The position numbers were made by a program, and so were the translations under genes. A stretch of DNA of 33,477 nt from Xinfangfangia pollutisoli (GTDB lineage Bacteria > Pseudomonadota > Alphaproteobacteria > Rhodobacterales > Rhodobacteraceae), in the NCBI RefSeq assembly GCF_020179405.1, contig NZ_JAICBZ010000045.1, positions 1 through 33,477 on the forward strand, in the 5' to 3' direction. Below the pieces are notes generated by a model. The model was not told the origin of the DNA. It did no database searches and saw only the letters and a list, made by a program, of their open reading frames with translations. Below are positions 5,914 through 21,561 of this stretch, piece after piece; position 1 is the first letter of the stretch; every line of letters begins with the position of its first letter.

Positions 5914-6010
5914 TCGGGCAAGGAATCGCTCGACAAGCCGCGGGGCTGCCGCACAATATGATCAAATAAGGCCCGCAACGCGGCCGCGACCGATCAACGG
6001 GGAGCAAGAC

Positions 6011-7075: not shown

Positions 7076-7077
7076 CC

Positions 7078-7992: not shown

Positions 7993-8794
7993 GAAGCATT
8001 TCGAAGTCTCGCGCCTGCCCGGCTTTGCCACCACCGCGATCATCGTCTTCGTGGCGCTTTACGTGCCGATCTTCACCCTGGTCGCCTACAGCTTCAACGC
8101 CTCGATGTCGGTTGCGGTCTGGGGCGGCTTCTCGACCGACTGGTATGTGAAGGCCTGGTCGAACCAGCAGATCAAGGATGCCACGCTGCGCAGCCTGATC
8201 ATCGCCTGTTTCGCCGCCGCGATCTCGACCGCGGTTGCGACGATGGCGGCCCTGGGCACGACGCGGCGCAAGGCCTTCAAGGGGCAGACCTTCATCTATG
8301 TGATGATCAACCAGCCGCTGATGGTGCCGGAAATCGTCACCGCCGTCGCCCTTTTGATCCTGTTCGGCATGATCAAGCAGGCGACCGGCATCCAGGGCAT
8401 CGGCTATGTGATCCTGGCCCACAGCGCCTTCTGCATTCCCTTCGCCTATCTGCCGATCCGCGCCCGGCTGGAGGGGATGGACCTGTCGCTGGAAACCGCC
8501 GCGGCCGATCTTTACGCCACGCCCTGGCAAACCTTCCGCCGGGTCACGCTGCCCCTGCTGGCGCCGGGGATCGCGGCGGGGGCGATGCTGGCCTTCGTGA
8601 TCTCGCTGGACGATGTGGTCATCACCGAATTCGTCAAGGCGGGCGGGCAGGACACGCTTCCGACCTATATGCTGGGCCAGATGAAGCGCCAGCTGACGCC
8701 CGAAATCAACGCGGTCTCCTCGATGCTGCTCTTGGTGACCGTGGCGCTGCTGACCGCCTTCTTCCTGCTGACGCGCAAGAAGAATGACGGCTGA
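7985..8794 (+). CDS. Polyamine-type ABC transporter permease (PotC-like)
   Basis: A 269-residue permease and partner of the preceding one. It has six hydrophobic stretches and an EAA loop (ETAAADLYATPWQTFRRVTL). The segment LAFVISLDDVVITEFV is a PotC hallmark. The ATG at 7985 has GGAG nine bases upstream. Earlier in-frame ATGs at 7949 and 7970 lie deeper in the PotB-like gene and are less well placed. The eight-base overlap with the upstream gene indicates translational coupling. The transported compound is set mainly by the binding protein that follows 42 bases downstream. Confidence 0.92.
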   Translation: MAEKHFEVSRLPGFATTAIIVFVALYVPIFTLVAYSFNASMSVAVWGGFSTDWYVKAWSNQQIKDATLRSLIIACFAAAISTAVATMAALGTTRRKAFKGQTFIYVMINQPLMVPEIVTAVALLILFGMIKQATGIQGIGYVILAHSAFCIPFAYLPIRARLEGMDLSLETAAADLYATPWQTFRRVTLPLLAPGIAAGAMLAFVISLDDVVITEFVKAGGQDTLPTYMLGQMKRQLTPEINAVSSMLLLVTVALLTAFFLLTRKKNDG

Positions 8795-8836
8795 CCCGAT
8801 CCACCGATAACAAGACCACCAACCGGGAGACGATCC

Positions 8837-9862
8837 ATGACCAAACTGCTTGGCGCAACCGCGATCCTGCTGGCGACGACCAGCCTGGCCGCGGCCGAGG
8901 GCGAATTGCAGCTGTTCAACTGGGGCAATTACACCAGCCCCGAGCTGCTGGAGAAGTTCAAGAAGGAAACCGGCATCACCGTGACGGTGACCGATTACGA
9001 CAGCAATGACGGCGCGCTGGCGAAGATCGAGGCCGGCGGCCATGGCTTTGACCTGGTGGTGCCGACCCATCAATATGTGCAGATCTATGCCGAGAAGGGG
9101 CTGATCGTGCCTCTGGATCTGTCGAAACTGCCGAACCACAAAAACATCGCCCCCGAATGGACCAATGTCGACTGGGATCCGGGCCGCGCCTACACGATCC
9201 CGTGGCAATGGGGCACGACCGGCGTCGGTGTGAACACCTCGGTCTATTCCGGCGACATCAACACCTCGGACATCTTCATGAATGTGCCGGCCGAGCTGAA
9301 GGGCAAGATCAACGTCGTGCCCGAGATGAACGACGTGGTGAACCTGGCGGTGATGTGGGCCGGCGGCGAGCCCTGCTCGGAAGATCCCGAAGTGCTGAAG
9401 AAGGCCCGCGACGCGCTGATCGCGGCCAAGCCCGACTGGATCTCGATGGATTACGGCGCCACCGAGAAGCTGTCGAACAATGACTGGGCCGCTTCGGTGA
9501 ACTGGAACGGCTCGACCATGCGGGCGCGGATCGCCAATCCTTCGGTGGCCTATGGCTATCCGAAGGAAGGCTATCCGATCTGGATGGATTCGGTGGCGCT
9601 GCTGGCCGATGCCCAGCATGTCGAAGAGGCCTACAAGTTCCTCGACTTCATCGAGCAGCCGGAAAATGCCGCGATGATCAGCGCGTTCGCGCGCTATGCC
9701 AATGGCATTGCCGGATCCGACGAATTCATGCCGGAAGACATGAAGACCGCGCCGGAAATCGTGGTGCCGGAAGCTTCGAAGGCGGCGGGCAAGTTCATTC
9801 CGACCTGCAGCCCCAAGGCGCAGGAATACATGACCGCGATCTGGACCGAGTTGCAGAAGTAA
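8837..9862 (+). CDS. Periplasmic polyamine-type substrate-binding protein (PotD/PotF-like)
   Basis: A 341-residue extracytoplasmic binding protein with a signal peptide of about 20 residues (LLATTSLAAA then EGELQLF). GGGAGA lies six bases before the ATG. Against my memory of E. coli PotD, the amine-contacting positions are largely kept: Trp29 and Tyr32 (NWGNY), Trp223 (NWNGS), and Trp249 with Asp251 (IWMDS). Acidic residues at Glu163 and Asp166 stand where PotD has Asp168 and Glu171. This supports a cationic amine ligand such as a polyamine or a conjugate. Differences elsewhere in the pocket, and the amidases on each side, leave room for an acylated or amide-bearing amine. A good terminator follows the stop. 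Confidence 0.92.
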   Translation: MTKLLGATAILLATTSLAAAEGELQLFNWGNYTSPELLEKFKKETGITVTVTDYDSNDGALAKIEAGGHGFDLVVPTHQYVQIYAEKGLIVPLDLSKLPNHKNIAPEWTNVDWDPGRAYTIPWQWGTTGVGVNTSVYSGDINTSDIFMNVPAELKGKINVVPEMNDVVNLAVMWAGGEPCSEDPEVLKKARDALIAAKPDWISMDYGATEKLSNNDWAASVNWNGSTMRARIANPSVAYGYPKEGYPIWMDSVALLADAQHVEEAYKFLDFIEQPENAAMISAFARYANGIAGSDEFMPEDMKTAPEIVVPEASKAAGKFIPTCSPKAQEYMTAIWTELQK

Positions 9863-9881
9863 GGCTAGGCTGCAACGGCAG

Positions 9882-9910
9882 GGCCGGGGTTCCGCGGGAC
9901 CCCGGCCTTT
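9882..9910 (+). terminator. Intrinsic terminator after the importer operon
   Basis: GGCCGGGGT (9882-9890) pairs with ACCCCGGCC (9899-9907), and three further inner pairs are possible with a bulged T. The stem is followed by a short TTT and GCGTCT. It lies 20 bases after the binding-protein stop. The stem is strong but the T-tract is short, as is common in GC-rich alphaproteobacteria. Confidence 0.7.
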
Positions 9911-9920
9911 GCGTCTGTGG

Positions 9921-9980
9921 CAGCCCCCGGGGGTTTCACACCCCCGGACCCCCGTGGGATATTTTTGGACAGATGAAAGA
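9921..9980 (+). repeat. Candidate Rhodobacteraceae intergenic repeat (hairpin plus AT motif)
   Basis: A perfect 8-bp stem with a 5-base loop (9927-9947; CCGGGGGT/ACCCCCGG) is followed by GACCCCCGTGGGAT and then ATATTTTTGGACAGATGAAA (9959-9978). I recall very similar elements scattered between genes in Rhodobacteraceae, but only this copy occurs in the window. That it is a repeat family is therefore memory-based. It may work as a second terminator. Its final ATG is the first in-frame start of the next amidase, so that start may be an artefact of the element. Confidence 0.5.
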
Positions 9981-11409
9981 GGCAGACGTGCTGGAATGGT
10001 CGGCAACAGACCTGTCGCGGGCGATCCATGCGCGGAAAGTCGCGCCGTCCGAGGTGATGGCGGCGCATCTGGCGCAGGTGCAGGCGGTGAATGGCGCGGT
10101 GAATGCGCTGGTGTCCTGCCGCGACCCGGATGTGCTGATGGCCGAGGCGCGGGCCCTGGACAATGTGGCGCCCAGGGGCTGGCTGCATGGCATTCCGCTG
10201 CCGGTGAAGGATCTGCAGGCAACCGCGGGGCTGCGCACCACCTGGGGCTCGCCCGTCTATGCCGATCATGTGCCGGCGCAGGACGATCTTCTGGCGGCGC
10301 GGATGCGGGCGGCAGGGGCGGTGTTCACCGCCAAGACCAATGTGCCGGAATGGGGCCAGGGCTCGCATTCCTACAACCCGATCTTCGGCGTCACCCGCAA
10401 CCCCTATGATCTGACACGCTCGGCCGGTGGGTCTTCGGGCGGGGCGGCGGCGGCTTTGGCCACGCGGATGGCCTGGGTGGCCGATGGGTCCGACATGATG
10501 GGCTCGCTGCGCAATCCGGCCGGGTTCTGCAATGTCTATGGCTTCCGCCCGACCTGGGGTCTGGTGCCGGGCGATGCGGTGGGCGACACCCATCTGGCGA
10601 CGCTGGCGACCGAAGGGCCGATGGCGCGCTGCGTCGAGGATCTGGCGCGGCTGTTGCAGGTGCAGGCGGGCGAGAACCCCGAAGTGCCCTTCCCCCGCGC
10701 GGTGCCGGATCTGCTGTCGGGGCTGGAGCAGGGCGTGACAGGGCTGCGGATCGGCTGGCTGGCCGATTGGGGCGGGGCCTATGCGATGGAGCCGGGCATT
10801 CTGGACGCCTGCGAGACCGGGCTGAAGGTGCTGGAAGGTCTGGGTGCCGTGGTCGAACCGCTGGCGCCGCCTTTCCCGGCGGAAAAGCTATGGTCGGCCT
10901 GGGTGACCCTGCGGGCCATGCTGTCGGCCGGCGGCAAGCGGGCGCTTTATGACGACCCGGCCAAGCGCGCCCTGACCAAGCCCGAAACGATCTGGGAGAT
11001 CGAGCAGGGTCTGGGCCTGTCGGCGCAGGCGGTTTACGAGGCCAGCGTGATCCGCTCGCGCTGGTATGCCCATGCGGCACGGCTGTTTTCGCGCTTTGAC
11101 GCGGTGGTTCTGCCCACGGCGCAGGTCTGGCCCTTCCCCGCCGAATGGGACTGGCCGAAAGACATCGCCGGGCGGAAGATGGACACCTATCACCGCTGGA
11201 TGGAGGTTGTGATCCCCGCCAGCCTGATCGGTCTGCCCGCCCTGTCGGTGCCCCTGGGCTTTGGGCCGCAGGGCCTGCCGTCGGGCATGCAGATCATCGG
11301 CCGGTCCGGCAATGATGCGGGCGTTCTGGCCATCGGACAGGCCTATCACCGCGCAACCGGCTGGCCGCAGCAGCGCCCGCCTCTGGCGGTGGGGTCGGTT
11401 TCGCGCTAG
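9973..11409 (+). CDS. Amidase-signature family hydrolase (second of two)
   Basis: A 478-residue amidase of the same superfamily as the gene at 4465 but clearly diverged from it. The triad residues are Lys79 (LPVKDLQ), Ser154 (SAGGSSGG) and Ser178 (DMMGSLRNP), with the usual 24-residue serine spacing. It has no signal peptide, so is cytoplasmic. The start is uncertain: the ATG at 9973 lies inside the hairpin/AT element. A GTG at 9988, with AAAGAGG five bases upstream, would give a normal N-terminus five residues shorter. The gene is separated from the importer by a terminator and is only 23 bases ahead of the Gfo/Idh/MocA gene. It may therefore be co-transcribed with the sugar genes rather than with the importer. 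The substrate is unknown. Confidence 0.9.
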   Translation: MKEADVLEWSATDLSRAIHARKVAPSEVMAAHLAQVQAVNGAVNALVSCRDPDVLMAEARALDNVAPRGWLHGIPLPVKDLQATAGLRTTWGSPVYADHVPAQDDLLAARMRAAGAVFTAKTNVPEWGQGSHSYNPIFGVTRNPYDLTRSAGGSSGGAAAALATRMAWVADGSDMMGSLRNPAGFCNVYGFRPTWGLVPGDAVGDTHLATLATEGPMARCVEDLARLLQVQAGENPEVPFPRAVPDLLSGLEQGVTGLRIGWLADWGGAYAMEPGILDACETGLKVLEGLGAVVEPLAPPFPAEKLWSAWVTLRAMLSAGGKRALYDDPAKRALTKPETIWEIEQGLGLSAQAVYEASVIRSRWYAHAARLFSRFDAVVLPTAQVWPFPAEWDWPKDIAGRKMDTYHRWMEVVIPASLIGLPALSVPLGFGPQGLPSGMQIIGRSGNDAGVLAIGQAYHRATGWPQQRPPLAVGSVSR

Positions 11410-11432: not shown

Positions 11433-12368
11433 ATGCGGGTTCTGGTCATCGGCTCGGGGTCGATCGGGCGCCGGCATCACGACAACCTGGCCACGCTGGG
11501 TGCTGCGCCGCAGCTGCTGTCCTGGCGCGAGGCCGGGCTGGCGGGCGCGCTGTCGGCGATGGATCGGGCGGAGGCGGTGGTGGTGGCCACCGCAACCGAT
11601 ATCCGCCTGTCCGTGATCGAGGCCGCTGCCGCCCGCGACCTGCCGCTTTACATCGAAAAGCCGCTGGCCTTCACCCCCGACGAAGTCGAGGCGATTGCCG
11701 CCGTGACCGCGCCCGTCGCCGAACGCTCGGTCTTGGGCTATATGATGCGCTACCATCCCGCCCTGCGGGCCCTGGCCGAGGCGGATCTGTCGGATGTGTT
11801 CCAGTTCGCCCTGACCATCGGCCATGACGTGACGCAATGGCGGGCCAACTGGTTGTTTTCACAAAGCTATGCGGCGCGGTCGGAAGGTGGCGGCGTGCTT
11901 CTGGACCTGTGCCACGAGCTGGATATGGCAGCCTGCCTGTTCCCGGGGCTGGAGCTGACGGGCGTTGAATCGCTGGCCCATCCCGCCTTTCCCGGCGTCG
12001 ATTTCGCCAGCCGGATCTCGCTGCGCCGCGGCGCCCTGGTGGGCGATGTGTCGATGGATTACCTGACGCCGGGCCTGCATCGCCGCGCCCATCTGCGCGG
12101 GTCCGAGCGGATGCATGATTTCGATTTCGCCGCCCAGGCCTATCGGGTGACCGATGGCGCCGGCGGGCGGATGCTGGACCTGCCCCTGGAACGCAATGCG
12201 ATGTTCCTGGATGCGATGCGCGACTTCCTGGCCCTGGCCGTGGGCCGCGCGCCTTCGGCCAATCCCTTGCTGCCGCGTCTGGATCTGGCCATGGGCTCGG
12301 CCCGGCTGGTGGCCCAGGCCTGGGCCGCGCGGCGCTTTGTCGGACAGATCACGAAGGAGATCCCATGA
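11433..12368 (+). CDS. Gfo/Idh/MocA family NAD(P)-dependent sugar oxidoreductase
   Basis: A 311-residue oxidoreductase. The N-terminal Rossmann fold begins MRVLVIGSGSIGRRHHDNL (GxGxxG nucleotide site at residues 7-12). The EKP motif (YIEKPLAF, near residue 75) marks the Gfo/Idh/MocA family, and GGGVLLDLCHELDMA lies in the C-terminal domain with the conserved active-site His. Such enzymes oxidise or reduce hydroxyls of sugars or nucleotide-sugars. The next gene (CMP-sugar synthetase) overlaps it as ATGA and an SDR follows, so a role in making or modifying a nonulosonic acid is likely. Which carbon it acts on cannot be read from the sequence. GGGGGCGGA lies shortly before the ATG. Confidence 0.88.
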   Translation: MRVLVIGSGSIGRRHHDNLATLGAAPQLLSWREAGLAGALSAMDRAEAVVVATATDIRLSVIEAAAARDLPLYIEKPLAFTPDEVEAIAAVTAPVAERSVLGYMMRYHPALRALAEADLSDVFQFALTIGHDVTQWRANWLFSQSYAARSEGGGVLLDLCHELDMAACLFPGLELTGVESLAHPAFPGVDFASRISLRRGALVGDVSMDYLTPGLHRRAHLRGSERMHDFDFAAQAYRVTDGAGGRMLDLPLERNAMFLDAMRDFLALAVGRAPSANPLLPRLDLAMGSARLVAQAWAARRFVGQITKEIP

Positions 12369-13072
12369 TCCTGGGTCATATCGGCGCGCGGAAGGGCAGC
12401 AAAGGCGTGCCGCGCAAGAATTTCCGCATGATCTGCGGCAAGCCGCTGATCGACTGGTCGCTGGACCAGCTGTTCGCGCATCCGATGGTCGATGCGGTGG
12501 TGGTTTCCACGGATGACGAGGAAATCTACGACCATGCCGTCGCCAAGGGCGCCTTGGCGGTGGGGCTGCGGCCCGCGCATCTGGCCACCGATACGGCCGG
12601 CAAGTTCGGCGTCTGGCAGCATGCGCTTTCAGTGTCCGAGCCGCTTTGCGGCACGGTTTCGGCCTTTCTGGATCTGGACTGCACCTCGCCCCTGCGCCTG
12701 CCGGAAGACATCACTGGCGCGTTGGAGCTTTACAAAAGCGAACATCCCGACCTGGTGATGAGCTGCTGTGAGGCGCGAAAGAACCCATATTTCAACCTTG
12801 TCGAACCTGACGCCTCGGGTGCCCTGCATGTGTCGAAGCCGCTGCCCGGCGGCGTGGTCGCGCGGCAGCAGGCGCCGGTGGTCTATGAGCATGCGGCCTC
12901 GACCTATGTGGTCGCGCCGGATTACCTGCGTCGGGCCAAGGGCCTGTGGGAGGGGCGCGTGATCCCGTTTCTGATGCCCCCCGAACGCTGCGTCGATATC
13001 GACAGCCCTTTCGATTTCCGGCTGGTCGAATTTCTGCTGAAGGAGGCCCAAGGGGTTGAAAACAATGGCTGA
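12365..13072 (+). CDS. CMP-nonulosonic acid cytidylyltransferase (NeuA/PtmB-like)
   Basis: A 235-residue cytidylyltransferase that should activate a sialic- or legionaminic-type acid with CTP, releasing pyrophosphate. Visible motifs are the nucleotide loop ARKGSKGVPRKNF (residues 8-20), VVVSTDDEEI, LDLDCTSPLR and the metal site VDIDSPFDF. The phrases RKNPYFNLVE and RQQAPVVYEHAASTYV resemble Campylobacter PtmB (LegF, CMP-legionaminic acid synthetase) more than meningococcal NeuA, judged from memory of those proteins. The start overlaps the Gfo/Idh/MocA stop (ATGA) and the end overlaps the SDR start by eight bases. NeuB, which would make its substrate, is in the convergent operon. A Kdo cytidylyltransferase (KdsB) is less likely from the motifs. 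Confidence 0.88.
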   Translation: MILGHIGARKGSKGVPRKNFRMICGKPLIDWSLDQLFAHPMVDAVVVSTDDEEIYDHAVAKGALAVGLRPAHLATDTAGKFGVWQHALSVSEPLCGTVSAFLDLDCTSPLRLPEDITGALELYKSEHPDLVMSCCEARKNPYFNLVEPDASGALHVSKPLPGGVVARQQAPVVYEHAASTYVVAPDYLRRAKGLWEGRVIPFLMPPERCVDIDSPFDFRLVEFLLKEAQGVENNG

Positions 13073-13856
13073 GACTCTCAAGGGGCGTACCGTCTTCATC
13101 ACCGGATCGGGTGGCGTGCTGGGCAGCACCTATGTGCGCCGGATGCTGGCCGAAGGGGCGCGGGTGATCGCCTCGGACCTGCCCGGCAAGCGGGCCGAGG
13201 CGCTGATGGAAGCGCATGGCGCCAATGAGGCCTTCCGCTTCTACGAGCTGGACGTGGCCGACGAGGCCCAGGTCGAGGGCATCTTCCAGCGCATCCTGAA
13301 GGACGGCTGGGAGCCGAATGTGGTCTTGAACAACGCCGCGATCACCGGCGAACTCTTGATGGGCGCCGGCAAGGGCTTTCCGGATTTCTGCGACTTGACA
13401 GTGTCAGATTGGGAAAAGACCCTGCGCACCAACCTGACCGGCCCCTTCATGGTGGCCCGCCAGATGGACCGCGACATCGTGGGGAAATGGCCCTGCACGC
13501 TGATCAACGTGGCCTCGATGTATGCGCTGAACGGCGCGCATCATCCGATCTATGACGGCATGCCGTTCAAGAATTTCTCGGCCTATGGCGTGACCAAGGC
13601 GGGGATTCACGGGCTGACGGTCTGGCTGGCGGGCTATTGGGCGCCGCGCGGGGCGACGGTGAACACCATCGCGCCGGGCGCCGTCTTCAACAACCATTCC
13701 GAGGAATTCCAGCGCCGCGTGGGCGAGTTGATCATGCTGAACCGCATGGCCAAACCGGATGAGATCGCCGATGCGATGCTGTTCCTGGCCAGCGCGGCTT
13801 CGGGCTACATGACCGGGCAGCTGGTCAATGTCGATGGCGGGTTCAGCGCCTGGTAA
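13065..13856 (+). CDS. Short-chain dehydrogenase/reductase (PtmA-like) of the nonulosonic acid locus
   Basis: A 263-residue classical SDR from the ATG at 13065 (a TTG nine bases earlier is less likely). It has the cofactor motif TGSGGVLGS near the N-terminus, the NNAA motif (VLNNAAITG), an active-site Ser in NVASMYALNG, and the catalytic pair YGVTK. It ends in the common SDR tail GQLVNVDGGFSAW. Its place directly after a PtmB-like cytidylyltransferase matches the ptmA-ptmB pairing of Campylobacter flagellar glycosylation. The role of PtmA there is not well defined, so the reaction here is unknown. It overlaps the previous gene by eight bases. Its last 14 bases also encode the end of the GT30 gene on the other strand. 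Confidence 0.88.
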   Translation: MAETLKGRTVFITGSGGVLGSTYVRRMLAEGARVIASDLPGKRAEALMEAHGANEAFRFYELDVADEAQVEGIFQRILKDGWEPNVVLNNAAITGELLMGAGKGFPDFCDLTVSDWEKTLRTNLTGPFMVARQMDRDIVGKWPCTLINVASMYALNGAHHPIYDGMPFKNFSAYGVTKAGIHGLTVWLAGYWAPRGATVNTIAPGAVFNNHSEEFQRRVGELIMLNRMAKPDEIADAMLFLASAASGYMTGQLVNVDGGFSAW

Positions 13857-15123
13857 GCAGGGGCGCGATGGCGGCCATGGTCTTTTCCGTGGCGCCGGAA
13901 TGGGCGGCAAGGAAGGCCTGAATCGCTTGCGGATCAGGACCTTGCCAGCCTTCGGGCGTCAGGGCCCGGGCTAGGTCTTCCGGCGACTTCGCATGAAAGC
14001 AGACACCGTCGGCAATCGCCTCGACCGCCGGATATTCGATCGTGTGGATCTCGGGCCCGACGATCACCGGCCGACCCAGGGCCAGGGGTTCGATGATGTT
14101 ATGCGCGCCATGCGGGGTGAAGCCGCCGCCGGTCACCACGCGGTCGGCCATGGCCAGGTAGAAATACATCTCGCCCAGACTGTCGCCCAAAAGCAGATCC
14201 ATTGCCGGGGCCGCGCGTGGGGACAGATTTTCGTCGAAAATCTGCGACCGTCGCGCGAAGGTGATACCCCGCGCCGCAATCATCCCGGCCACGTCGTCAA
14301 AGCGTTCCGGCTTGCGCGGCACATAGATGACAAAGGGCCGGTCCGCGGCGGCAAGGCGGGTCTTGATGGTGTCAAGATAGAGGTCATCCTCGCCTTCCAC
14401 CGCCGAGGCAAAGCACAGGACCGGCCGGCCGGCGGCCAGCGCCTGCCGTGCAGCCGGAGCGGCGGCGGTCAGCCTCGGCGGGATCGGCTGGTCGAAACGC
14501 AACTCACCCGTGACCTGGATGTTCGGCACCCCGATCGCGGCGAAACGCTGGGCCTGCAGCTGCGATTTCACCAAGGCGCCGGCAAAGCCGCGCATCACGG
14601 CGGGGCGCAGCGGAAACCGCGCGTCGCGGGCGATGCTTTTGACCGGATATTGCGCATTACACATCACCAGCGGCACGCCGGCCGCCCGCGCCGCAAAGAC
14701 CATGCGCGGCCAGATCTCGATCTCCATCACCAGGCCCAGTTTTGGGCGAAAGGCGCGGAAGAAGCCCCGGAAGCACCAGGCCAGCTCGAACGGCACCCAA
14801 ACCGCGCGCAGCCGGTTCTGCGATCTTTCCAACGCAAAGACCCGCTCGGCCTCGCGCCGGCCGGCGGGGGTGAAATGGGTGGTGACGACCGTCTCGCCGC
14901 GGTCCAGCAGGGCGCGGATCAGCGGCACCGCGCTGCGCAATTCGCCCAACGAGACGGCGTGGATCCAGACCGCGCCCGGCAGCGGCAGGGCATGGCGGCC
15001 GAAGCGTTCGGCCAGATGCTGCGCATAAAGCGGATCCTTGCGGCCGCGACGGCGCAGATACAGCAGCACCAGCGGCAGGCACAGCGTCCAAAGCGCCGAC
15101 CAGATGGCCAGGAAAACCCTCAT
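13843..15123 (-). CDS. Kdo-transferase-like glycosyltransferase (GT30), second of a pair
   Basis: A 426-residue protein of the WaaA/KdtA family, which transfers Kdo from CMP-Kdo to lipid A. An N-terminal membrane anchor (about residues 5-23) is followed by WIHAVSLGE, whose Glu61 is the expected catalytic base. Next come TTHFTPAGRREAE, EIEIWPRMV, NAQYPVKS, TGELRFDQ, VPRKPERF and the CMP-site region GGGFTPHGAHNIIEPLALG. All family landmarks are present. It is the last gene of the operon and overlaps the first GT30 gene as ATGA. It is far from identical to that gene, so this is not a recent duplication. In an operon that makes CMP-sialic acid it may transfer a sialic acid rather than Kdo, but this is inference. 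A housekeeping waaA role cannot be excluded, though lpxK is not next to it. Confidence 0.85.
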   Translation of the reverse strand: MRVFLAIWSALWTLCLPLVLLYLRRRGRKDPLYAQHLAERFGRHALPLPGAVWIHAVSLGELRSAVPLIRALLDRGETVVTTHFTPAGRREAERVFALERSQNRLRAVWVPFELAWCFRGFFRAFRPKLGLVMEIEIWPRMVFAARAAGVPLVMCNAQYPVKSIARDARFPLRPAVMRGFAGALVKSQLQAQRFAAIGVPNIQVTGELRFDQPIPPRLTAAAPAARQALAAGRPVLCFASAVEGEDDLYLDTIKTRLAAADRPFVIYVPRKPERFDDVAGMIAARGITFARRSQIFDENLSPRAAPAMDLLLGDSLGEMYFYLAMADRVVTGGGFTPHGAHNIIEPLALGRPVIVGPEIHTIEYPAVEAIADGVCFHAKSPEDLARALTPEGWQGPDPQAIQAFLAAHSGATEKTMAAIAPLLTRR

Positions 15124-16340
15124 CCCAGCAGCCCCAGCAACGCGCGGGCCAAGGGCGCAAGGCTGCCCTGCGCGGCGTCGGACAGGGCCTTCGCCCGGGC
15201 CGCCATTGCCGAATGGTCTGCCGCGACCGCTGCCGGCAGATCGGCCTTGCGGACCAGAAGCGCCGCTTCGGCCGCATCCAGCGTGGCATAATCGGCGGCG
15301 AAATTCGCGGTGCAGGCGCCATGCAGCACCGCGCAGCCCAAGGCGGCCGCTTCCCAGGGGTTGTGCCCCTGCACCGGGCCGAAACTCCCACCGATCAGGG
15401 CAACCGGCGCCAGCCGATACCAAAGACCCAATTCGCCATATGCATCGGCGATGTGAACCTCGCCCGAAGGCGGCTCGCCGGCGGATTGCAGCGTGGCCTT
15501 GCGGCCAAGCCCGCGCGCGCGTTCGGCAATGCCGGGCCCATACGCGACATCCCGCGGCACGATCACCAGAAGCCGGTCTTCGGGCGGCAGGTCAAGCGCG
15601 AGGGCGGTTTCCTCGAAATGCGCCGAGGCGACCAGCCAGAGTTTGCGCCCCGCAAGCTGCGCCCGCAGATCGGCCAGCCGCGCATCGTCCACCGCCAAGG
15701 GCGGTGCCGCGGCCTTGAGCGATCCGGTGACCTGCGGCGACGGCGCGCCCAGCGCGGCCAGATGCCGTGCCGTTTCGGCATCCTGCGCGGCGACCAGACG
15801 GAAGCGCGCCAGCAGGTCGGCATAAAGCCCGCGCGCCCGCGCGCGCCGGGCAAAGGACTCGGCGTTCATCCGCGCGTTCACCAGCGCCAAAGGCACGCCC
15901 GCCGCATCGGCCGCAGCCACCGCGCCAGGCCACAGATCCTGCTCGGCCCAGATCGAAAGATCGGGACGCCAATGGTTTAGGAAGCGGCGCAGAAAGCGCG
16001 GCGCGTCCAGCGGCAGGAACTGGTGCTGGGTGCGCGGCGGCAGGTTCGCTTCCATCACCTGGGCCGAGGAGCGGGCCGAGGAGGTGACGAGAAAGGACAG
16101 GTCCGGCGCCTGTTCCGCCAGCGCGGCGATCAGCCCGCGCAGCGCCAGCACCTCGCCCAGACCCACGGCATGCAGCCAGATCAGCCGGCCCTCGGGGCGT
16201 GGCAGCGACGCCTGCCCCAGCTTTTCGCGCCAGCGCGCCGGGTCTTCCTTGCCGCGCGCCAGGCGCCGCCGCAGCATCAGTGCCGCAAGCGGGGTCAGCG
16301 CGCGCGTCGCCCCCCGATAGGCGGCCAGCTGCCAGGACAT
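15120..16340 (-). CDS. Kdo-transferase-like glycosyltransferase (GT30), first of a pair
   Basis: A 406-residue GT30-family protein. WLHAVGLGE places the expected catalytic base at Glu63. It has WAEQDLWPG in place of the usual METELWP, LVNARMNAES, VTGSLKAAAP, IVPRDV and the donor-site region GGSFGPVQGHNPWEAAALG. The usual TPTG loop after the first Rossmann strands is replaced by TSSARSSAQVM, a clear departure from typical WaaA. The start shares one base with the neuC stop (TGATG) and the stop overlaps the second GT30 gene (ATGA). Kdo and sialic acids are both CMP-activated 2-keto-3-deoxy acids, so a GT30 enzyme could plausibly use CMP-sialic acid. The function is otherwise not readable. Confidence 0.85.
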   Translation of the reverse strand: MSWQLAAYRGATRALTPLAALMLRRRLARGKEDPARWREKLGQASLPRPEGRLIWLHAVGLGEVLALRGLIAALAEQAPDLSFLVTSSARSSAQVMEANLPPRTQHQFLPLDAPRFLRRFLNHWRPDLSIWAEQDLWPGAVAAADAAGVPLALVNARMNAESFARRARARGLYADLLARFRLVAAQDAETARHLAALGAPSPQVTGSLKAAAPPLAVDDARLADLRAQLAGRKLWLVASAHFEETALALDLPPEDRLLVIVPRDVAYGPGIAERARGLGRKATLQSAGEPPSGEVHIADAYGELGLWYRLAPVALIGGSFGPVQGHNPWEAAALGCAVLHGACTANFAADYATLDAAEAALLVRKADLPAAVAADHSAMAARAKALSDAAQGSLAPLARALLGLLG

Positions 16341-17461
16341 CAGCCGGCGTCCTGGAAGGATTTCTGCAATCCGCGCGCCCAGAATTCGGGATCGGCCAGC
16401 ACCTGCACGAACCGGTCGGCCGCCAGCCCCTCGCCAAAGCCCGCATCGCGCGGCAGGCGATGGCCCCAGGCGCGGGCCAGGAAAGCCGCGATCTTGTCAC
16501 TGTCAAAGGCCGCGCAGGCAGTGACGGACCCGGCCTCGGACCGGTTCGACTGCCGCGTGCCGACATCCAACGAGGGCAGGCCCAGGAAGGGCGCCTCGCG
16601 CACGCCGGCGCTGGAATTGCCGACCATCACGGCGGCATGTTTCATCAGTTCCGAGAAATGCGCGAAACGCATCGAAGGCAGGACCCGGAATCTTGACGCT
16701 GGCAAGGCGTTGATCGCGGCGAAGATCGCCTCGGATCCCGGGTCGTTGTTCGGCGCGATCACCACGAAATTCCGCCCCGACGCCTCCAGCGCCTTGAACA
16801 GCGCCTGGGCCTGCGCGCCCATCGTCGCCTGTTCCGAGGTCACCGGATGGAAGACCGCGATGCCGAAATCGTCAAAGGGAATGGCGTAATGCGCGCGCAC
16901 CTGATCCAGCGTCACGCCCGAGGGCTTGGCGTGGAAATCCAGCTCGGGCGAGCCGATCACATGCACGCTGTCGGCAGGTTCGCCCAGCGCCATGACCCGG
17001 CGCTTGGCGCTGTCGGAGGAGACGAAGTGATGGGTGCAAAGCTTGGTGTTGCAGTGGCGAAACACCTCGTCGATCGTGCCCGACACCTCGCCGCCCTCGA
17101 CATGGGCCGAGCGGATGTAATTCGTGGCCGCCACCAGCGCACCTGCCAACGCCTCGATCCGGTCGCCATGGATCACCACCAGATCGGGGCGGTGTTCGAT
17201 CAGATAGTCGGAAAAGCCCATCACCGTCTTGGCCAGCACGATATCCTGCGGATCGCCGCTGCGCTGGTTGACGAAATCATAGACCCCGACCCCCGGCATG
17301 CGGGCCACCTCGAGCTTGGTCAGACCGTAGCGATCCAGCATATGCATGCCGGTCACGAAGAACGACACCCGGTGCCCCGCATCGCGCGCGGCGGCGGCCA
17401 GGGGTTCAAGCTTGCCGAAATCGGCGCGGGTGCCGGTGAGGAACAGGATGGAGCGGGTCAT
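16340..17461 (-). CDS. neuC: UDP-GlcNAc 2-epimerase, hydrolysing (NeuC)
   Basis: A 373-residue enzyme that converts UDP-N-acetylglucosamine to ManNAc and UDP, the first committed step to sialic acid. It begins with the family signature FLTGTRADFGKLEPL, then FVTGMHMLDRYG, VVIHGDRIEALAGA, HVEGGEVSGTIDEVFRH and NSSAGVREAPFLG, followed by VGTRQSNR. All are very close to my memory of meningococcal NeuC (SiaA), of similar length. This argues for the Neu5Ac route rather than a generic WecB-type epimerase. It is the fifth gene of the neuB operon, with ATGA overlap upstream and TGATG overlap downstream. It acts in the cytoplasm and feeds NeuB. A LegG-type enzyme acting on a different UDP-sugar is the main alternative. 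Confidence 0.92.
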   Translation of the reverse strand: MTRSILFLTGTRADFGKLEPLAAAARDAGHRVSFFVTGMHMLDRYGLTKLEVARMPGVGVYDFVNQRSGDPQDIVLAKTVMGFSDYLIEHRPDLVVIHGDRIEALAGALVAATNYIRSAHVEGGEVSGTIDEVFRHCNTKLCTHHFVSSDSAKRRVMALGEPADSVHVIGSPELDFHAKPSGVTLDQVRAHYAIPFDDFGIAVFHPVTSEQATMGAQAQALFKALEASGRNFVVIAPNNDPGSEAIFAAINALPASRFRVLPSMRFAHFSELMKHAAVMVGNSSAGVREAPFLGLPSLDVGTRQSNRSEAGSVTACAAFDSDKIAAFLARAWGHRLPRDAGFGEGLAADRFVQVLADPEFWARGLQKSFQDAG

Positions 17462-18240
17462 GCCGGGATCGTGCCTCCGTTCGAGGTCCAGTACTCGGCC
17501 ATCCAGCGCACGCGACCATGGCCCATATGGGGGAACCGGTCCCAGAAATAGGGCTTGCCGCGGATCAGGTCGATCGGACGGGGGCGGCCGTGGAAGGCCA
17601 GAACCCGCGTCTCGCCCGAGGGGGCCTTGGGGTCAAGCACCAGGTCCAGCCCGATGGGGCGGCGCAGGCTGCGCTTGAACGAGGCGACCCAGCCCTGCGG
17701 CCAGAAGCCGGCATCGGGGAAGCGCGAATGCAGATATTGCTGTTCCTGACGGAAGCGCGCCCAGACCGCCTGTTTGTCGGCGCGGAAATCCTCGGCCACT
17801 TCGGGGTGCTGGCCCGGGTTCCAGGCGAAGATCATCGAACCGAATTCCGGCGCTTCGGCGGCCTGGCCAGGCTTACCCCAGGACGGGCTGGCATTGGTGC
17901 CGATCACCGTGCCGGGCAGGTCGAAGAAGGCGTCCAGATCGCGCACGATCACCATGTCGAGGTCGATGAACAGCGCCCGGCCGCGCAAGCCGTGGAACTG
18001 CCGGTCGAAAAGCGAGACCTTCGGCCAGACGCCGGGGCGGAACCATTCCTCGGGCGCAAGGCCGGTTTCGGGGATCGGAAAGGTCTCGATCCCCGGCAGA
18101 AGGCCGGTCGCATCATCGGTCAGGCAGACGAAGCGCGCCGGGCGCGTCAGCGCCTTGCGGCTGGCATTGTACAGCACGTTCACATAATCGGCCGGATAGG
18201 CGCGGCCGTATTTCATGCAGACGATCAGCCGGTCGGTCAT
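17458..18240 (-). CDS. GT8-like glycosyltransferase
   Basis: A 260-residue protein of GT-A type. RFVCLTDDATGL, VWPKVSLFDR (about 71-80) and the metal-binding FIDLDMVIVRDLDAFFD (DxD at residues 93-95) resemble the GT8/glycogenin-like group, with GSMIFAWNPG and a Trp- and His-rich C-terminal half. It has no signal peptide or membrane helix and should act in the cytoplasm on a growing surface glycan. It overlaps its neighbours on both sides as ATGA. Donor and acceptor are unknown. The family normally uses UDP-hexoses or UDP-hexosamines, so it is unlikely to be the sialyltransferase of the locus. Confidence 0.72.
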   Translation of the reverse strand: MTDRLIVCMKYGRAYPADYVNVLYNASRKALTRPARFVCLTDDATGLLPGIETFPIPETGLAPEEWFRPGVWPKVSLFDRQFHGLRGRALFIDLDMVIVRDLDAFFDLPGTVIGTNASPSWGKPGQAAEAPEFGSMIFAWNPGQHPEVAEDFRADKQAVWARFRQEQQYLHSRFPDAGFWPQGWVASFKRSLRRPIGLDLVLDPKAPSGETRVLAFHGRPRPIDLIRGKPYFWDRFPHMGHGRVRWMAEYWTSNGGTIPA

Positions 18241-19733
18241 GCCAACCCCCGCTCTGCCGGGGCCGAGGCATCCGGGAAGGTCAGCGGCACCTTGCCGGTC
18301 AGGATGTCCAGCAGCTGGGCGCTGACCGTCCGGGTGTTGGCCTCGGCGTCATAGCCCTGCACGATCTCGGTATAGACGGTTTCCAGCACGCCCTGATGCG
18401 CCCGCGACAGCACCGCGCCCGCGGCCTTTTCCAGCGCGGCATGATCGACCGGCAGCGCGGCGATCTGGTGGAAATCCAGGCCCGGCCGCCAGGCGACGAT
18501 CCCGGGCAGCGACCGGTACCAGGCCGCGCCGAAGGCCACCGCCGCCTTGCCCTTGCGGATCGATTCCCAGCAGGCATTCGAGGTCACGGCCGCGGTGAAC
18601 TTTGCCCGCGACGACAGCGCATGGGTATTGGCATGCGAGGGCAGGAAGCGCACCGAAGGGATCCGGCTCAGCCGGTGAAAGAACAGCGGGCCGCGGGCAA
18701 AGGCGGTCTGGCGCGGGTTTTCCTTCACATAGATCTTCCAGCCCGCCGGCAGATCCTGGGCCAGCGCCTCGATCATCAGCAACTGGTCGCGCCAGATCCC
18801 GCCCAGGGCCGAGGTCGAAAGCTCGGGCTGGTTCTGCAGCGGCACATAGATGAAATCGGCCTCCAGATCGAAATCGCCGGACTCGTATTCGGCAAGATTC
18901 TCGAAGTAGGCCAGTTCGTTTTCGTGGAAGAACCGCGCGAAGGGATCGCGCCAGTCGGGCAGGCCTTGATAAAGCGCCGAAATCCGCCCCAGGGTGCGGC
19001 GCATATAGGCCGGGTTCAGCAGCTTCTTCGGATCGCGCAGCGCCATGAACTTGACGAAACGCGCCACGGCCCGGCCGCTGATCCTGCCGCGCGGCGCCTT
19101 TTCCTGCCAGCGCGCATCCATGTAGAACAGATCGGGCGACGATCCCTTTTCGATCGGCATCGGCGGCGCGTCGATGCCCGATGTGTCAAGCCGCCCCAGA
19201 TCCTCGACCCGCGCCATGGAAAAGAACTGGCCGGGAAACAGGGTCTGATACAGGACCACGGTCTTCAGCCCCAAGGCGCGCGCGACCTGATACAGGATCG
19301 TGTCATAGCCGACATGCGGCACATTCATGAACAGCGCATGGGTGGCGCCGGTTTCGCGGATGCGTTGGGCATAGGCGCCGGCGAGCAGATGGTAGAAATC
19401 CAGATAGTCCTGCAAGTTCCGCAGGTTGTGCGCGCGGTAGCGATAGGCGGCGTCGCTGCGCTGCAACTGGTCGATCGCGGTTTCGACCATCTGGTGATAG
19501 TCGGGCGACAGGATCAGCGGCAGATCCGCCCCCGACAGGCGAAAGCGCTGCATCAGATCGTCGGTGCCGGCATGGCCGGGGCGCATGCGGTTGATCTCGG
19601 GGCCCGACAGATCGGCGCCCACATCGCCCAGATGGAAGGCGATTTCCACCGCGCCCTGCGCGCGGGCGACCAGCTGTTCGACCATCGCGCGCCGATGCGC
19701 GCCGCGCCCGTCCACCACCAGCCGGATGGTCAT
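18237..19733 (-). CDS. Capsule-synthesis-like protein, possible KpsC/KpsS-type glycosyltransferase
   Basis: A 498-residue protein from the ATG at 19733, with GGAGG eight bases upstream and an ATGA overlap with the GT25 gene. A longer frame to 19853 lies inside that gene and is rejected. The C-terminal half resembles the capsule-synthesis family (KpsC/KpsS, which build beta-Kdo linkers from CMP-Kdo). The features are DFIYVPLQNQPE (about 293-304), WKIYVKENPRQ (332-342), SRAKFTAAVTSNACWESIRKGKAAVAFGAA split across 375-404, and the pattern of a final Rossmann domain. The N-terminal half (GDVGADLSGPEINR, LRNLQDYLDFYHLL) I do not recognise. The assignment is by overall pattern only. Like the GT30 proteins it is a candidate user of a CMP-activated acidic sugar. 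Confidence 0.6.
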   Translation of the reverse strand: MTIRLVVDGRGAHRRAMVEQLVARAQGAVEIAFHLGDVGADLSGPEINRMRPGHAGTDDLMQRFRLSGADLPLILSPDYHQMVETAIDQLQRSDAAYRYRAHNLRNLQDYLDFYHLLAGAYAQRIRETGATHALFMNVPHVGYDTILYQVARALGLKTVVLYQTLFPGQFFSMARVEDLGRLDTSGIDAPPMPIEKGSSPDLFYMDARWQEKAPRGRISGRAVARFVKFMALRDPKKLLNPAYMRRTLGRISALYQGLPDWRDPFARFFHENELAYFENLAEYESGDFDLEADFIYVPLQNQPELSTSALGGIWRDQLLMIEALAQDLPAGWKIYVKENPRQTAFARGPLFFHRLSRIPSVRFLPSHANTHALSSRAKFTAAVTSNACWESIRKGKAAVAFGAAWYRSLPGIVAWRPGLDFHQIAALPVDHAALEKAAGAVLSRAHQGVLETVYTEIVQGYDAEANTRTVSAQLLDILTGKVPLTFPDASAPAERGLA

Positions 19734-20524
19734 TTTCCGCCCTCCGTCAGATCCCGCCCGCAGCGCGGGAGCAGAAAGCCCTTCTTCAGCAGCCACCAGA
19801 AGCGGCGGAAGTAATTCGCCGCCCGCAGCCGGTAATGCGGCAGGCGGCGCCATTTCGGGAATTTCGCGACATCGCCAAATCCGGTGCCGGTGATCAGGCT
19901 TTGGCCCATATCGTCGACATGGCTGGGGAAGGGTTCCATCCCGAACAGGCGGAAGTCGTGTTTGAAGAAGCGGTTGATCTCGTGATCGGTGGCGCGGGTG
20001 ATCGGGATCATCCCGGGCAGGATCTTCTGCACCGTCTCGCGATGGATCAGATAGGCGCCCGTTCCCGTCGCCGGCCCCAGATAGGCGTTGATCCGCCAGC
20101 GGCCCAGGCGGCCCTGACAGATCGGCATCTTCGCCCGGATCCGGTTCAGCTTCAGCATGTCCCAGGCCTGGTCATTGGCCAGCGCCAGATCCACCGCTTC
20201 CAGGAAATCGTCATGGAAGACCACGTCGTCTTCCAGGATCAGCGCCGCGGGCTTGCCACTGTCAAGAAACGCCCCCCACACGCCCAGATGCGAGTTGTAG
20301 CAGCCGATCCCGCCCCACAGAACCTTGCGGCCCAGATTGCGTTCGAAGGCCGGCAGATCCATCAGCTTGACCAGCTCGTCCTTGCGCGCCTTGCCGTCCA
20401 CCCCGTCGAACACGGTATAGGGCAGGTCCATGCGGGCCAGCTGCGTCTCCATCCGCGCGCGCCGTTCGGTGGCGCGCGGCAGGTTGATCAGCCAGACCCC
20501 GATATCGGCGCGGCTCAGGCTCAT
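19730..20524 (-). CDS. Glycosyltransferase family 25 (LPS galactosyltransferase-like)
   Basis: A 264-residue GT25-family enzyme. It opens with VWLINLPRATERRARM, has FDGVDGK near residue 39, then GCYNSHLGVWGAFLDSG and LILEDDVVF (EDD at 98-100), which together define the LgtB/LpsA-type family. A C-terminal basic, aromatic stretch (NYFRRFWWLLKKGFL) could rest on the membrane. GT25 enzymes usually add beta-linked galactose from UDP-Gal to LPS-type acceptors, a common place for terminal sialic acid. The start chosen is the ATG that overlaps the neuB stop (ATGA). It also overlaps the capsule-like gene. Exact donor and acceptor are not known. Confidence 0.87.
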   Translation of the reverse strand: MSLSRADIGVWLINLPRATERRARMETQLARMDLPYTVFDGVDGKARKDELVKLMDLPAFERNLGRKVLWGGIGCYNSHLGVWGAFLDSGKPAALILEDDVVFHDDFLEAVDLALANDQAWDMLKLNRIRAKMPICQGRLGRWRINAYLGPATGTGAYLIHRETVQKILPGMIPITRATDHEINRFFKHDFRLFGMEPFPSHVDDMGQSLITGTGFGDVAKFPKWRRLPHYRLRAANYFRRFWWLLKKGFLLPRCGRDLTEGGK

Positions 20525-21561
20525 GCCAGGTCGGCCCATTTCAGCTGGGTGTTGCGGGTGACCGCGCGGGTCAGCCGCTTGCCAAGCACTTTGTCGAAAT
20601 CATAGGCCGCGATCTCGCCCGAACCCGGGCGGCGCGCCCAGATATCCTGTTCGCGGATCACATGGCCTTCCGGCAGATCGGCATCGGCCACGACCGAGCC
20701 GCGGGCGAAACGGTAGACGTCTTCTTCCGGGCCGGACCGCTGTTTCGGATTGTTCGCCGCGATCCAGATTTCCTTGGACCGGTCGATCAGGAACCGCAGT
20801 TCCGCCGGGTCCATCGAGTTGATGATATCCGGCCCCTTGCGATAGCGCGTGTCGGTATAGTGCCGTTCAAGGATGCAGGCGCCCAGCGCCACCGAGGCCA
20901 GCGCCATTTCCGGGCCGATCGAATGGTCGGAAAAGCCGACAACGGCCCTGGGGAAGGCCTCTTTCAACTCGGTCACGCCGCGCAGACTGACGATTTCCGC
21001 CGGGCTGGGGTACAGATTGGTGCATTCCAGCAGCGCATAGGGCACCCTGGCCGCATCCAGGATATCGACCGAGGCGCGAATGGTTTCAATGGTTTGCATG
21101 CCAGTCGACAGGATCACCGGCTTGCCCTTGCGGGCGATGTGCCGGATCAGCGGCAGATTGTCCGCCTCGCCCGAGCCGATCTTGTAGGCCGGCACATCCA
21201 GCCCTTCCAGATAATCCGCCGCCGCCCGCGAAAACGGGGTGGAAATCCAGATCATCCCCAGGCTTTCGGTATAGCGCTTCAGCTCGGCCTCTTCGTCCAG
21301 GCTCAGCGCGCAGCGTTCCATCACATGCCAGATCGAGACATCGGCATTGGGCGGGAAAATCGCCTTCGCCTCATCCGTCATCTCGTCTTCCAGAATATGG
21401 GTCTGGTGCTTGACCAGCTCGCAGCCGGCGCCGGCGGCGAGGCGGACCATCTCCTTGGCAGTGTCAAGATCGCCGCCATGGTTGATGCCGATCTCGGCGA
21501 TGACCAGGGGCGGATGGGCGGGGCCGATCTTGCGGCCGGCGATGGTGATCTCGTTGGGCAT
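20521..21561 (-). CDS. neuB: N-acetylneuraminate (sialic acid) synthase NeuB
   Basis: A 346-residue aldolase-type synthase that condenses phosphoenolpyruvate with ManNAc to give N-acetylneuraminic acid. The TIM barrel has VIAEIGINHGGD (20-31), KHQTHILEDEM (51-61), STPFSRAAADYL, YKIGSGEADNLPLI, STGMQTIETI, TNLYPSP and GFSDHSIG. The last 70 or so residues form the antifreeze-like SAF domain (SVVADADLPEGHVI, then WARRPGSGEI). The KHQTH and STPFSRAA phrases fit Neu5Ac-type NeuB rather than the KFQ type of LegI/PseI, from memory of those families. AAGGAG stands six bases before the ATG. It is the first of seven overlapping genes ending in the GT30 pair. Confidence 0.94.
   Translation of the reverse strand: MPNEITIAGRKIGPAHPPLVIAEIGINHGGDLDTAKEMVRLAAGAGCELVKHQTHILEDEMTDEAKAIFPPNADVSIWHVMERCALSLDEEAELKRYTESLGMIWISTPFSRAAADYLEGLDVPAYKIGSGEADNLPLIRHIARKGKPVILSTGMQTIETIRASVDILDAARVPYALLECTNLYPSPAEIVSLRGVTELKEAFPRAVVGFSDHSIGPEMALASVALGACILERHYTDTRYRKGPDIINSMDPAELRFLIDRSKEIWIAANNPKQRSGPEEDVYRFARGSVVADADLPEGHVIREQDIWARRPGSGEIAAYDFDKVLGKRLTRAVTRNTQLKWADLA

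Follow-up and report, generated by a model that had tools for sequence, protein, structure and literature searches.

Two divergent GT30 genes in a sialic-acid operon of Xinfangfangia pollutisoli and the predicted role of one of them in nonulosonic-acid transfer

A stretch of 33,477 nucleotides from Xinfangfangia pollutisoli (hereafter the window; contig C129 of a genome of 4.41 Mb) carries the sialic-acid genes neuB and neuC in one gene run with two different genes of glycosyltransferase family 30 (GT30), termed alpha and beta. GT30 enzymes are classed as inverting, and the GT30 transferases known to us so far use 3-deoxy-D-manno-octulosonic acid (Kdo). This raises the question whether one or both proteins transfer sialic acid activated with cytidine monophosphate (CMP), as the initial annotation proposed. 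Our analysis suggests that the answer differs for the two genes. Beta is predicted to transfer CMP-activated nonulosonic acids, a reading to which we assign a probability of roughly 0.7 in view of its own clade, its co-occurrence with NeuB, its neu, pse or amino-sugar CMP-transferase neighbours and its altered active site. For alpha, in contrast, the proposal is opposed by its position inside the WaaA proteins of Rhodobacteraceae, by its being the sole A-type GT30 found in the genome and by the retention of lysine K162.

Beta and its nonulosonic-acid gene contexts

The two genes are located at the distal end of the neuB/neuC run:
15120..16340, minus strand: alpha, a WaaA orthologue with an S28-to-G change, predicted Kdo transferase with an altered acceptor site (PF04413, 178 bits)
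13843..15123, minus strand: beta, a GT30 homologue, predicted nonulosonic-acid transferase, probably of CMP-N-acetylneuraminic acid (CMP-Neu5Ac) type (PF04413, 148.5 bits)

In line with the initial annotation, both genes are intact. Alpha encodes 406 amino acids with the catalytic Glu63 and beta 426 with Glu61, and both pass the Pfam PF04413 cut-off of 23.9 bits. The open frame of beta extends back to a TTG at 15423; the ATG at 15123 is the start consistent with its relatives. As a phmmer comparison of alpha with beta yields 92 bits, the two do not represent a recent duplicate. AlphaFold2 yielded models with a mean pLDDT of 95.2 for beta and 94.8 for alpha, and the nearest solved structure identified by Foldseek was WaaA 2xci in both cases (E 3.1e-21 and 8.4e-19, respectively; TM-scores by query length 0.50-0.54). 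Taken alone, these predicted models would not decide the donor. At E 0.001 beta matched PF04413 and, weakly, PF13579 as the only Pfam models, none of them a sialyltransferase model, and no sialyltransferase of GT38, GT42, GT52 or GT80 was present among the 50 structural hits shown for the beta model. Both proteins miss the NCBIfam WaaA cut-offs (beta at best 351.7 versus 524, alpha 246.7 versus 617). However, this is a weak test within Rhodobacteraceae, since an ordinary WaaA gene of the family (A'-type, locus L006) fails as well (375.8 versus 617).

In a careful tree of 85 rows, 84 of them different, the 35 beta rows, including that of genome G417, formed a clade of their own with support 100/100, apart from alphaproteobacterial WaaA. 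The initial annotation had proposed a phylogeny to see whether both proteins form clades separate from the lpxK-linked waaA of the genome; beta forms its own clade, and alpha falls inside Rhodobacteraceae WaaA. Seven WaaA proteins from a single further family of the phylum, presumably betaproteobacterial, group with the beta clade (100/99); their beta-profile scores are 364-387 bits, the branching order among them is open, and E. coli lies outside.

The distribution of beta was followed in 345 Rhodobacteraceae genomes at a profile threshold of E<=1e-60. Matches were obtained in 59 genomes and a NeuB-family synthase in 97, with 56 containing both. One match (G246, 212.6 bits) was rejected as beta, being a cross-hit to the A'-type gene of that genome found at the same position in the alpha-profile search. 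Another (G217, 296 bits) is a beta gene truncated by a contig end, and all other matches reach at least 412 bits. Without G246, a NeuB-family synthase occurs in 55 of the 58 beta genomes versus 42 of the 287 others; the three beta genomes lacking it (G212, G252, G378) are assemblies of 230-370 contigs. Of the synthase genes, 55 of the 64 at 210-265 bits belong to beta genomes, compared with 2 of the 29 genes at 265 bits or above, one of these being that of G246. Counting G246, 41 of 60 beta places lie at most 10 kb from neuB on the same contig. Distant pairs are found as well. In the single-contig genomes G003 and G045 beta and neuB are 1.1 Mb and 728 kb apart, respectively, and another CMP-transferase adjoins beta in both. 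In G341 and G233 neuB is located on a separate contig; the 17-kb stretch around beta is devoid of neu genes in the former, and neuC and neuA adjoin beta in the latter.

Gene contexts were compared in 80 named loci, retained from 579 confirmed ones. These loci were chosen for beta, and counts of their contexts are therefore no independent test; nearly full flanks were available in 52 of them, so that gene counts are lower bounds. Genes of the neu or pse pathways, or aminotransferase/CMP-transferase genes, were present in the fetched flank of 74 of the 80. The pathway switches along the beta tree. One clade is linked to PseI (L051, L197-L200), and another (L048, L050, L176, L203) to a DegT aminotransferase, a PseF-like CMP-transferase and a GMC oxidoreductase, with the mutually identical, neu-linked L181 and L204 inside it. 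The remaining beta genes are mostly neuB/neuC-linked, and nested among them is a second pse-linked group (L158 and L160 by tree, L180 by context). In L160, PseB, PseC, PseF, PseG, one unnamed gene and PseI precede beta, the five named genes all scoring above the NCBIfam cut-offs. In L198 the order is PseB, PseC, PseF (above cut-off) and PseI (339.2 versus 340.25), then beta, and in L203 beta is accompanied by neuB, neuC and genes for the GMC protein, the CMP-transferase and DegT. No alpha was found in 11 of the 80 loci. Among these, beta is still accompanied by neu genes in L124, L134 and L186 (Shimia), L149 (Amylibacter) and L179 and L184 (Silicimonas), and by pse genes in L158, L160 and L180.

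As a separate observation, DegT aminotransferase, PseF-like CMP-transferase, GMC oxidoreductase and beta recur as a cassette (L048:5279-9949, L050, L176:6500-11300, L203:6226-13297), whose product may be an amino derivative of a nonulosonic acid or Kdo, formed via oxidation and transamination.

Active-site residues were compared in an alignment of 105 beta proteins (102 different sequences in the final 300 residues), 85 alpha proteins (83 different), 31 A'-type and 30 outgroup proteins, and 19 proteins of the lpxK-side type K described below, using A. aeolicus WaaA numbering. Some named and unnamed loci, such as L140 and G010, represent the same genome, and the counts thus refer to sequences, not to independent events. 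Residue roles on WaaA follow the available part of PMC6286764, where K162 is the proposed contact of the carboxylate of the donor Kdo, and S28 that of the 1-phosphate of lipid IVA (lipid A); in the passage on the S28 contact, exchange of all three residues for alanine is described as lowering activity. Beta retains G30, E31, E98, W102, P211 and R212 in 105/105 sequences and N273 and E276 in 103/105. Position 162, in contrast, is lysine in 30/30 outgroup, 31/31 A'-type and 85/85 alpha proteins, whereas beta has arginine in 99/105 and lysine in 6/105. Moreover, position 160 is glutamate in 104 beta proteins, and H184, present in 98% of outgroup and A'-type proteins, is absent from every beta. 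The CMP site of beta reads VPRKPER, with P269, R270 and P272 invariant. The arginine at position 162 was also considered as a marker of Neu5Ac versus pseudaminic acid and rejected, as the two pse-linked beta groups differ.

Taken together, these results suggest the following route. NeuC and NeuB would produce a sialic acid and the convergently encoded CMP-transferase would activate it, so that the operon would both make and use the sugar. Beta, derived from a WaaA lineage foreign to alphaproteobacteria, would then transfer it onto a core sugar or a glycolipid of the envelope by the WaaA mechanism, with Glu61 as the base, CMP held by the Arg/Asn/Glu set and an altered pocket for the carboxylate end of the donor. 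Alpha would act as the working Kdo transferase of the genome, a Rhodobacteraceae WaaA now placed beside beta and lacking the serine that is the proposed contact of the lipid A 1-phosphate. The donor, the acceptor, the linkage and the activities of the two proteins are predictions that we infer from the observed gene order, phylogeny, co-occurrence, residue changes and predicted fold.

Alpha and the other GT30 genes of Rhodobacteraceae

Alpha is nested in Rhodobacteraceae WaaA in the trees. At E<=1e-100 the alpha profile matched 192 of the 345 family genomes with exactly one alpha- or A'-type gene each (at most five candidates being scored per genome), indicating that alpha occupies the place of the A-type WaaA of other genomes. 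The trees and this single gene per matching genome set back alpha as the main sialyltransferase candidate. An alpha-type gene was assigned in 42 genomes, either by a score of at least 500 bits or, for G014 and G233, by tree.

The catalytic and CMP-binding residues G30, E31, E98, R212, N273 and E276 are kept in 81-85 of the 85 alpha proteins, four having aspartate at position 98. S28, however, invariant in the 30 outgroup, 31 A'-type and 105 beta proteins, is glycine in 85/85 alpha proteins. In addition, H213 is retained in about 1% of them and E187 is changed to aspartate in 96%, the copy of the window being excepted. The initial annotation had taken the TSSARSS loop of alpha, in place of TPTG, as a sign of changed function. 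This argument did not survive the alignment: TPTG is the E. coli form, and the TSSARSSA of alpha says little because the aligned alphaproteobacterial WaaA proteins lack TPTG and read T-[TS]-[GS]-T-x-[TS]-S-A. Judged by the alignment, S28 to G is the telling change in alpha.

The initial annotation had also noted that the absence of another waaA from the genome would make one of the two genes the housekeeping enzyme. Three PF04413 genes are present, alpha, beta and a third one at the end of contig C52 (G000:C52:4147-4758, L004), which is cut after 204 residues. A short gene of the kind that precedes K at other loci lies before the third gene, and contig C104 begins with lpxK; the third gene is thus probably the lpxK-linked gene K. 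Another GT30 gene hence exists, but in the covered part it has proline at position 31, aspartate at 98, arginine at 102 and glutamate at 162, so that E31, E98, W102 and K162 are all lost, and it was rejected as the housekeeping enzyme of this genome. For this reason, we consider it somewhat probable that alpha is the working, housekeeping Kdo transferase, with a changed acceptor.

Loss of catalytic residues is common to K proteins, which form a separate clade in the tree: among 19 of them E31 is kept in 1, E98 in 3, K162 in 0 and R212 in 2. Within the family, lpxK adjoins the gene in 18/18 K-region loci versus 10/30 A'-type loci (the 30 best-scoring). Elsewhere in the class, a GT30 match, always a single one, was obtained in 49 of 56 genomes, and 27 of 30 such loci fetched have an lpxK-like neighbour, one at only 41 bits.

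Two side observations concern these genes. K is retained beside lpxK in many Rhodobacteraceae (L004, L056-L067, L069-L074) and represents a conserved apparent pseudoenzyme. A fourth, highly divergent GT30 with a long branch is encoded in G009 (L068:2028-3392); lpxK, neu and pse genes were sought in its 6-kb stretch, and none was found.

A pair resembling alpha and beta is present in another class of the same phylum. In G417 (L219:5218-11876) neuC and neuB, a 345-amino-acid gene and, on the opposite strand, beta and a second GT30 gene lie together, beta being the one match listed with its profile among the four candidates scored. The second GT30 is the sister of alpha (99/91) and likewise has glycine at the S28 position. 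This locus implies that alpha-type and beta-type genes travelled with neuB/neuC between classes. A wider picture, which we put forward tentatively and at somewhat less than even odds, is that beta founds a GT30 nonulosonyltransferase branch whose members came to act on different CMP-activated nine-carbon acids, namely Neu5Ac-type sugars, pseudaminic acid and the DegT/GMC amino sugar. Alpha would have co-evolved with beta to transfer Kdo to a modified lipid A, and the two genes would be passed between bacterial classes as a unit.

Competing explanations and known transferases

Several observations weigh against a nonulosonic-acid transferase function of beta. The change from K162 to arginine does not follow the sugar, as lysine is kept in the PseI-linked L051 and L197-L200 and in L176, and arginine is found in the pse-operon loci L158, L160 and L180. 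Six of the 80 loci (L163, L164, L165, L166, L167, L169) contain no neu, pse or aminotransferase/CMP-transferase gene in the flank, and the ten neighbours scanned in four of these include no nonulosonic-acid gene. Fisher's test of the co-occurrence (table 55, 3, 42, 245) gives p=3.3e-33, a value that overstates independence, since genomes and genera share ancestry; the distant pairs in G003, G045 and G341 and the pathway switch along the beta tree weigh more than this p-value. Beyond Rhodobacteraceae, ordinary WaaA is also matched by the beta profile at 1e-70 (125 of 398 phylum genomes), which leaves the score as the sole basis of its specificity. Alpha itself is tied to the module, with neuB in 39/42 and beta in 39/42 alpha genomes, the exceptions being in 340-520-contig assemblies, and the alpha sister of G417 with its S28-to-G change adjoins beta and neuB/neuC. 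Alpha could thus have a sialylation-specific role. Finally, the KpsC-like protein encoded between neuB and neuC could be the transferase in this genome.

The last point bears on the claim of the initial annotation that no sialyltransferase is recognisable in the locus, which was nearly right, except that this PF05159 protein (18237-19853) competes. That it transfers the nonulosonic acid here, with beta being auxiliary, is unlikely in our estimate. Its PF05159 match exceeds the cut-off, though weakly (23.5 versus 20), and a homologue (L192:5894-7390, 376 bits alike) adjoins pseF and pseI where beta is missing from the locus. In the available part of PMC12887879, moreover, KpsS1, the founder of GT118, is described as a pseudaminic-acid transferase with 30% identity to E. 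coli KpsS. However, solved KpsC chains are matched only at E 0.31-0.37, and the KpsC-like label is found in only 5/80 beta loci, one at 62 bits. The protein may also be a second transferase with another acceptor; possibly, the proteins of the window and L192 represent a second family of nonulosonic-acid transferases. Loci with a NeuB-family gene and no beta (L187-L194) were examined for a replacement of beta. Among the ten genes scanned in L187, L188 and L192, the glycosyltransferases were limited to one of GT4 type in L187 and the KpsC-like protein of L192.

A reversal of roles, in which Kdo would be transferred by beta, from the other WaaA lineage, and sialic acid by alpha, the original WaaA of Rhodobacteraceae, appears less probable still. 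The clade-specific changes of alpha at S28, H213 and, outside the window, E187 would fit it, as would the alpha sister beside beta and neuB/neuC in G417. Yet 18 beta genomes, several of them fragmented, gave no alpha (not counting G246 and the broken G022). In ten of the 18, beta lies at most 350 bases from a PseI- or NeuB-type gene, and an A'-type gene is kept in G079, G258, G273, G373, G388 and other alpha-less genomes. The converse, alpha without beta, is limited to 3/42 genomes, all in the fragmented assemblies mentioned above, and one of them, G021, carries a truncated beta at the end of a contig. Furthermore, K162 is kept by alpha and mostly not by beta. The least probable alternative in our judgement is that both proteins add successive Kdo residues and cluster with neu genes merely through shared synthesis of the lipopolysaccharide (LPS) core. 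Both are GT30 proteins with catalytic residues, and the available part of PMC12856342 describes a second, non-WaaA Kdo transferase acting in Acinetobacter. This explanation does not account for the skewed distribution of the NeuB-family synthase, for beta at the end of complete pse operons or for the exchange of K162.

With nonulosonic-acid transfer by beta as the preferred reading, its likeness to known enzymes can be specified. Alpha and beta share with WaaA/KdtA the GT-B fold, with 2xci as the best structural match, the catalytic and CMP-binding residues and, presumably, a CMP-activated 2-keto-3-deoxy sugar as donor. They differ from it in scoring below the NCBIfam cut-offs, in having no lpxK neighbour and in lying with nonulosonic-acid genes, beta in addition by the predominant R162 and missing H184 and alpha by G28. 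The proposed use of CMP-sialic acid would connect beta with the sialyltransferases of GT38, GT42, GT52 and GT80. As far as the accessible text of PMC12887879 goes, these families have a (K/R)XHP motif, in place of which beta has VPRKPER at the CMP site. Sialyltransferases are assigned to GT29, 38, 42, 52 and 80 and CMP-Kdo transferases to GT30, GT73, GT99 and GT107 in the parts available of PMC12887879 and PMC5811610. KpsS1 (GT118) and the Kdo transferases of GT99 and GT107 likewise use CMP-activated nonulosonic acid or Kdo, and a KpsC-like protein is encoded in the operon of the window; unlike GT30, these distinct families are retaining according to the same part of PMC12887879. In a search for another sialyltransferase elsewhere in the genome, PF06002, PF07922 and PF11477 each matched 0/24 beta-bearing genomes, that of X. 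pollutisoli included, with the control genomes likewise silent; GT29, GT38, GT97 and GT100 were not searched. A literature search, mostly outside whose reach lay subscription journals, found no description of a GT30 nonulosonic-acid transferase.

If the assignment of beta is correct, an essential lipid A enzyme would have been turned into a sialyltransferase and a branch of GT30 shifted to nine-carbon sialic-acid-like sugars. Beta would be a candidate for the missing sialyltransferase of Rhodobacteraceae, one member of which, Rhodobacter capsulatus, is reported to have Neu5Ac in its LPS (PMC9631793, in the part available, citing Krauss 1992 among others); its genome is outside the 80 kept loci. 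The beta proteins would also provide a natural variant set for tests of donor specificity, and genes with WaaA as the closest annotation model would be flagged as probably not encoding Kdo transferases.

Gene content around alpha and beta

The remaining genes of the run and of the convergent plus-strand run are as follows, with beta-locus counts referring to the 80 named loci:
20521..21561, minus strand: neuB, nonulosonic-acid synthase (PF03102, 226.8 bits)
19730..20539, minus strand: GT25 family glycosyltransferase (PF01755, 88.1 bits; 21/80 beta loci)
18237..19853, minus strand: KpsC-like PF05159 protein, the rival nonulosonic-acid transferase (23.5 bits, cut-off 20)
17458..18240, minus strand: glycosyltransferase-like protein (PHROG 1962 glycosyltransferase, 1.1e-13; 20/80 beta loci)
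16340..17461, minus strand: neuC, hydrolysing UDP-GlcNAc 2-epimerase (TIGR03568, 339.6 bits, cut-off 235.9)
11433..12368, plus strand: Gfo/Idh-type oxidoreductase of the convergent neu run (PF01408, 29.7 bits, cut-off 24; 35/80 beta loci)
12365..13072, plus strand: CMP-sugar synthetase, neuA-like (PF02348, 59.1 bits; 56/80 beta loci)
13056..13856, plus strand: short-chain dehydrogenase of the convergent neu run (PF13561, 139.4 bits; 36/80 beta loci)

The minus-strand order is thus neuB, GT25, KpsC-like, glycosyltransferase-like, neuC, alpha and beta, and from 20539 down to 13843 each frame begins no later than the upstream one ends. As the final base of neuC, 16340, is the start of alpha and the end of alpha at 15120 overlaps the start of beta at 15123, translational coupling of neuC, alpha and beta is plausible, as the initial annotation had it. 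The gene neuB, which the initial annotation had included, belongs to the same run and is separated from neuC by the GT25, KpsC-like and 260-amino-acid glycosyltransferase-like genes. The KpsC-like frame as listed overlaps the GT25 gene by 124 bases, and its true start is probably located further inside. Pfam and NCBIfam scans of the glycosyltransferase-like protein at E 0.001 yielded no match. The best NCBIfam model of neuB is NeuB_NnaB (TIGR03569), at 335.2 bits under the cut-off of 399.65, and the CMP-sugar synthetase scores 90.5 bits with the PseF model, under the cut-off of 205.7. Adjoining the neu genes, positions 4465-11409 of the window contain ABC transporter genes (ATPase, permease and solute-binding protein) and two amidase genes.

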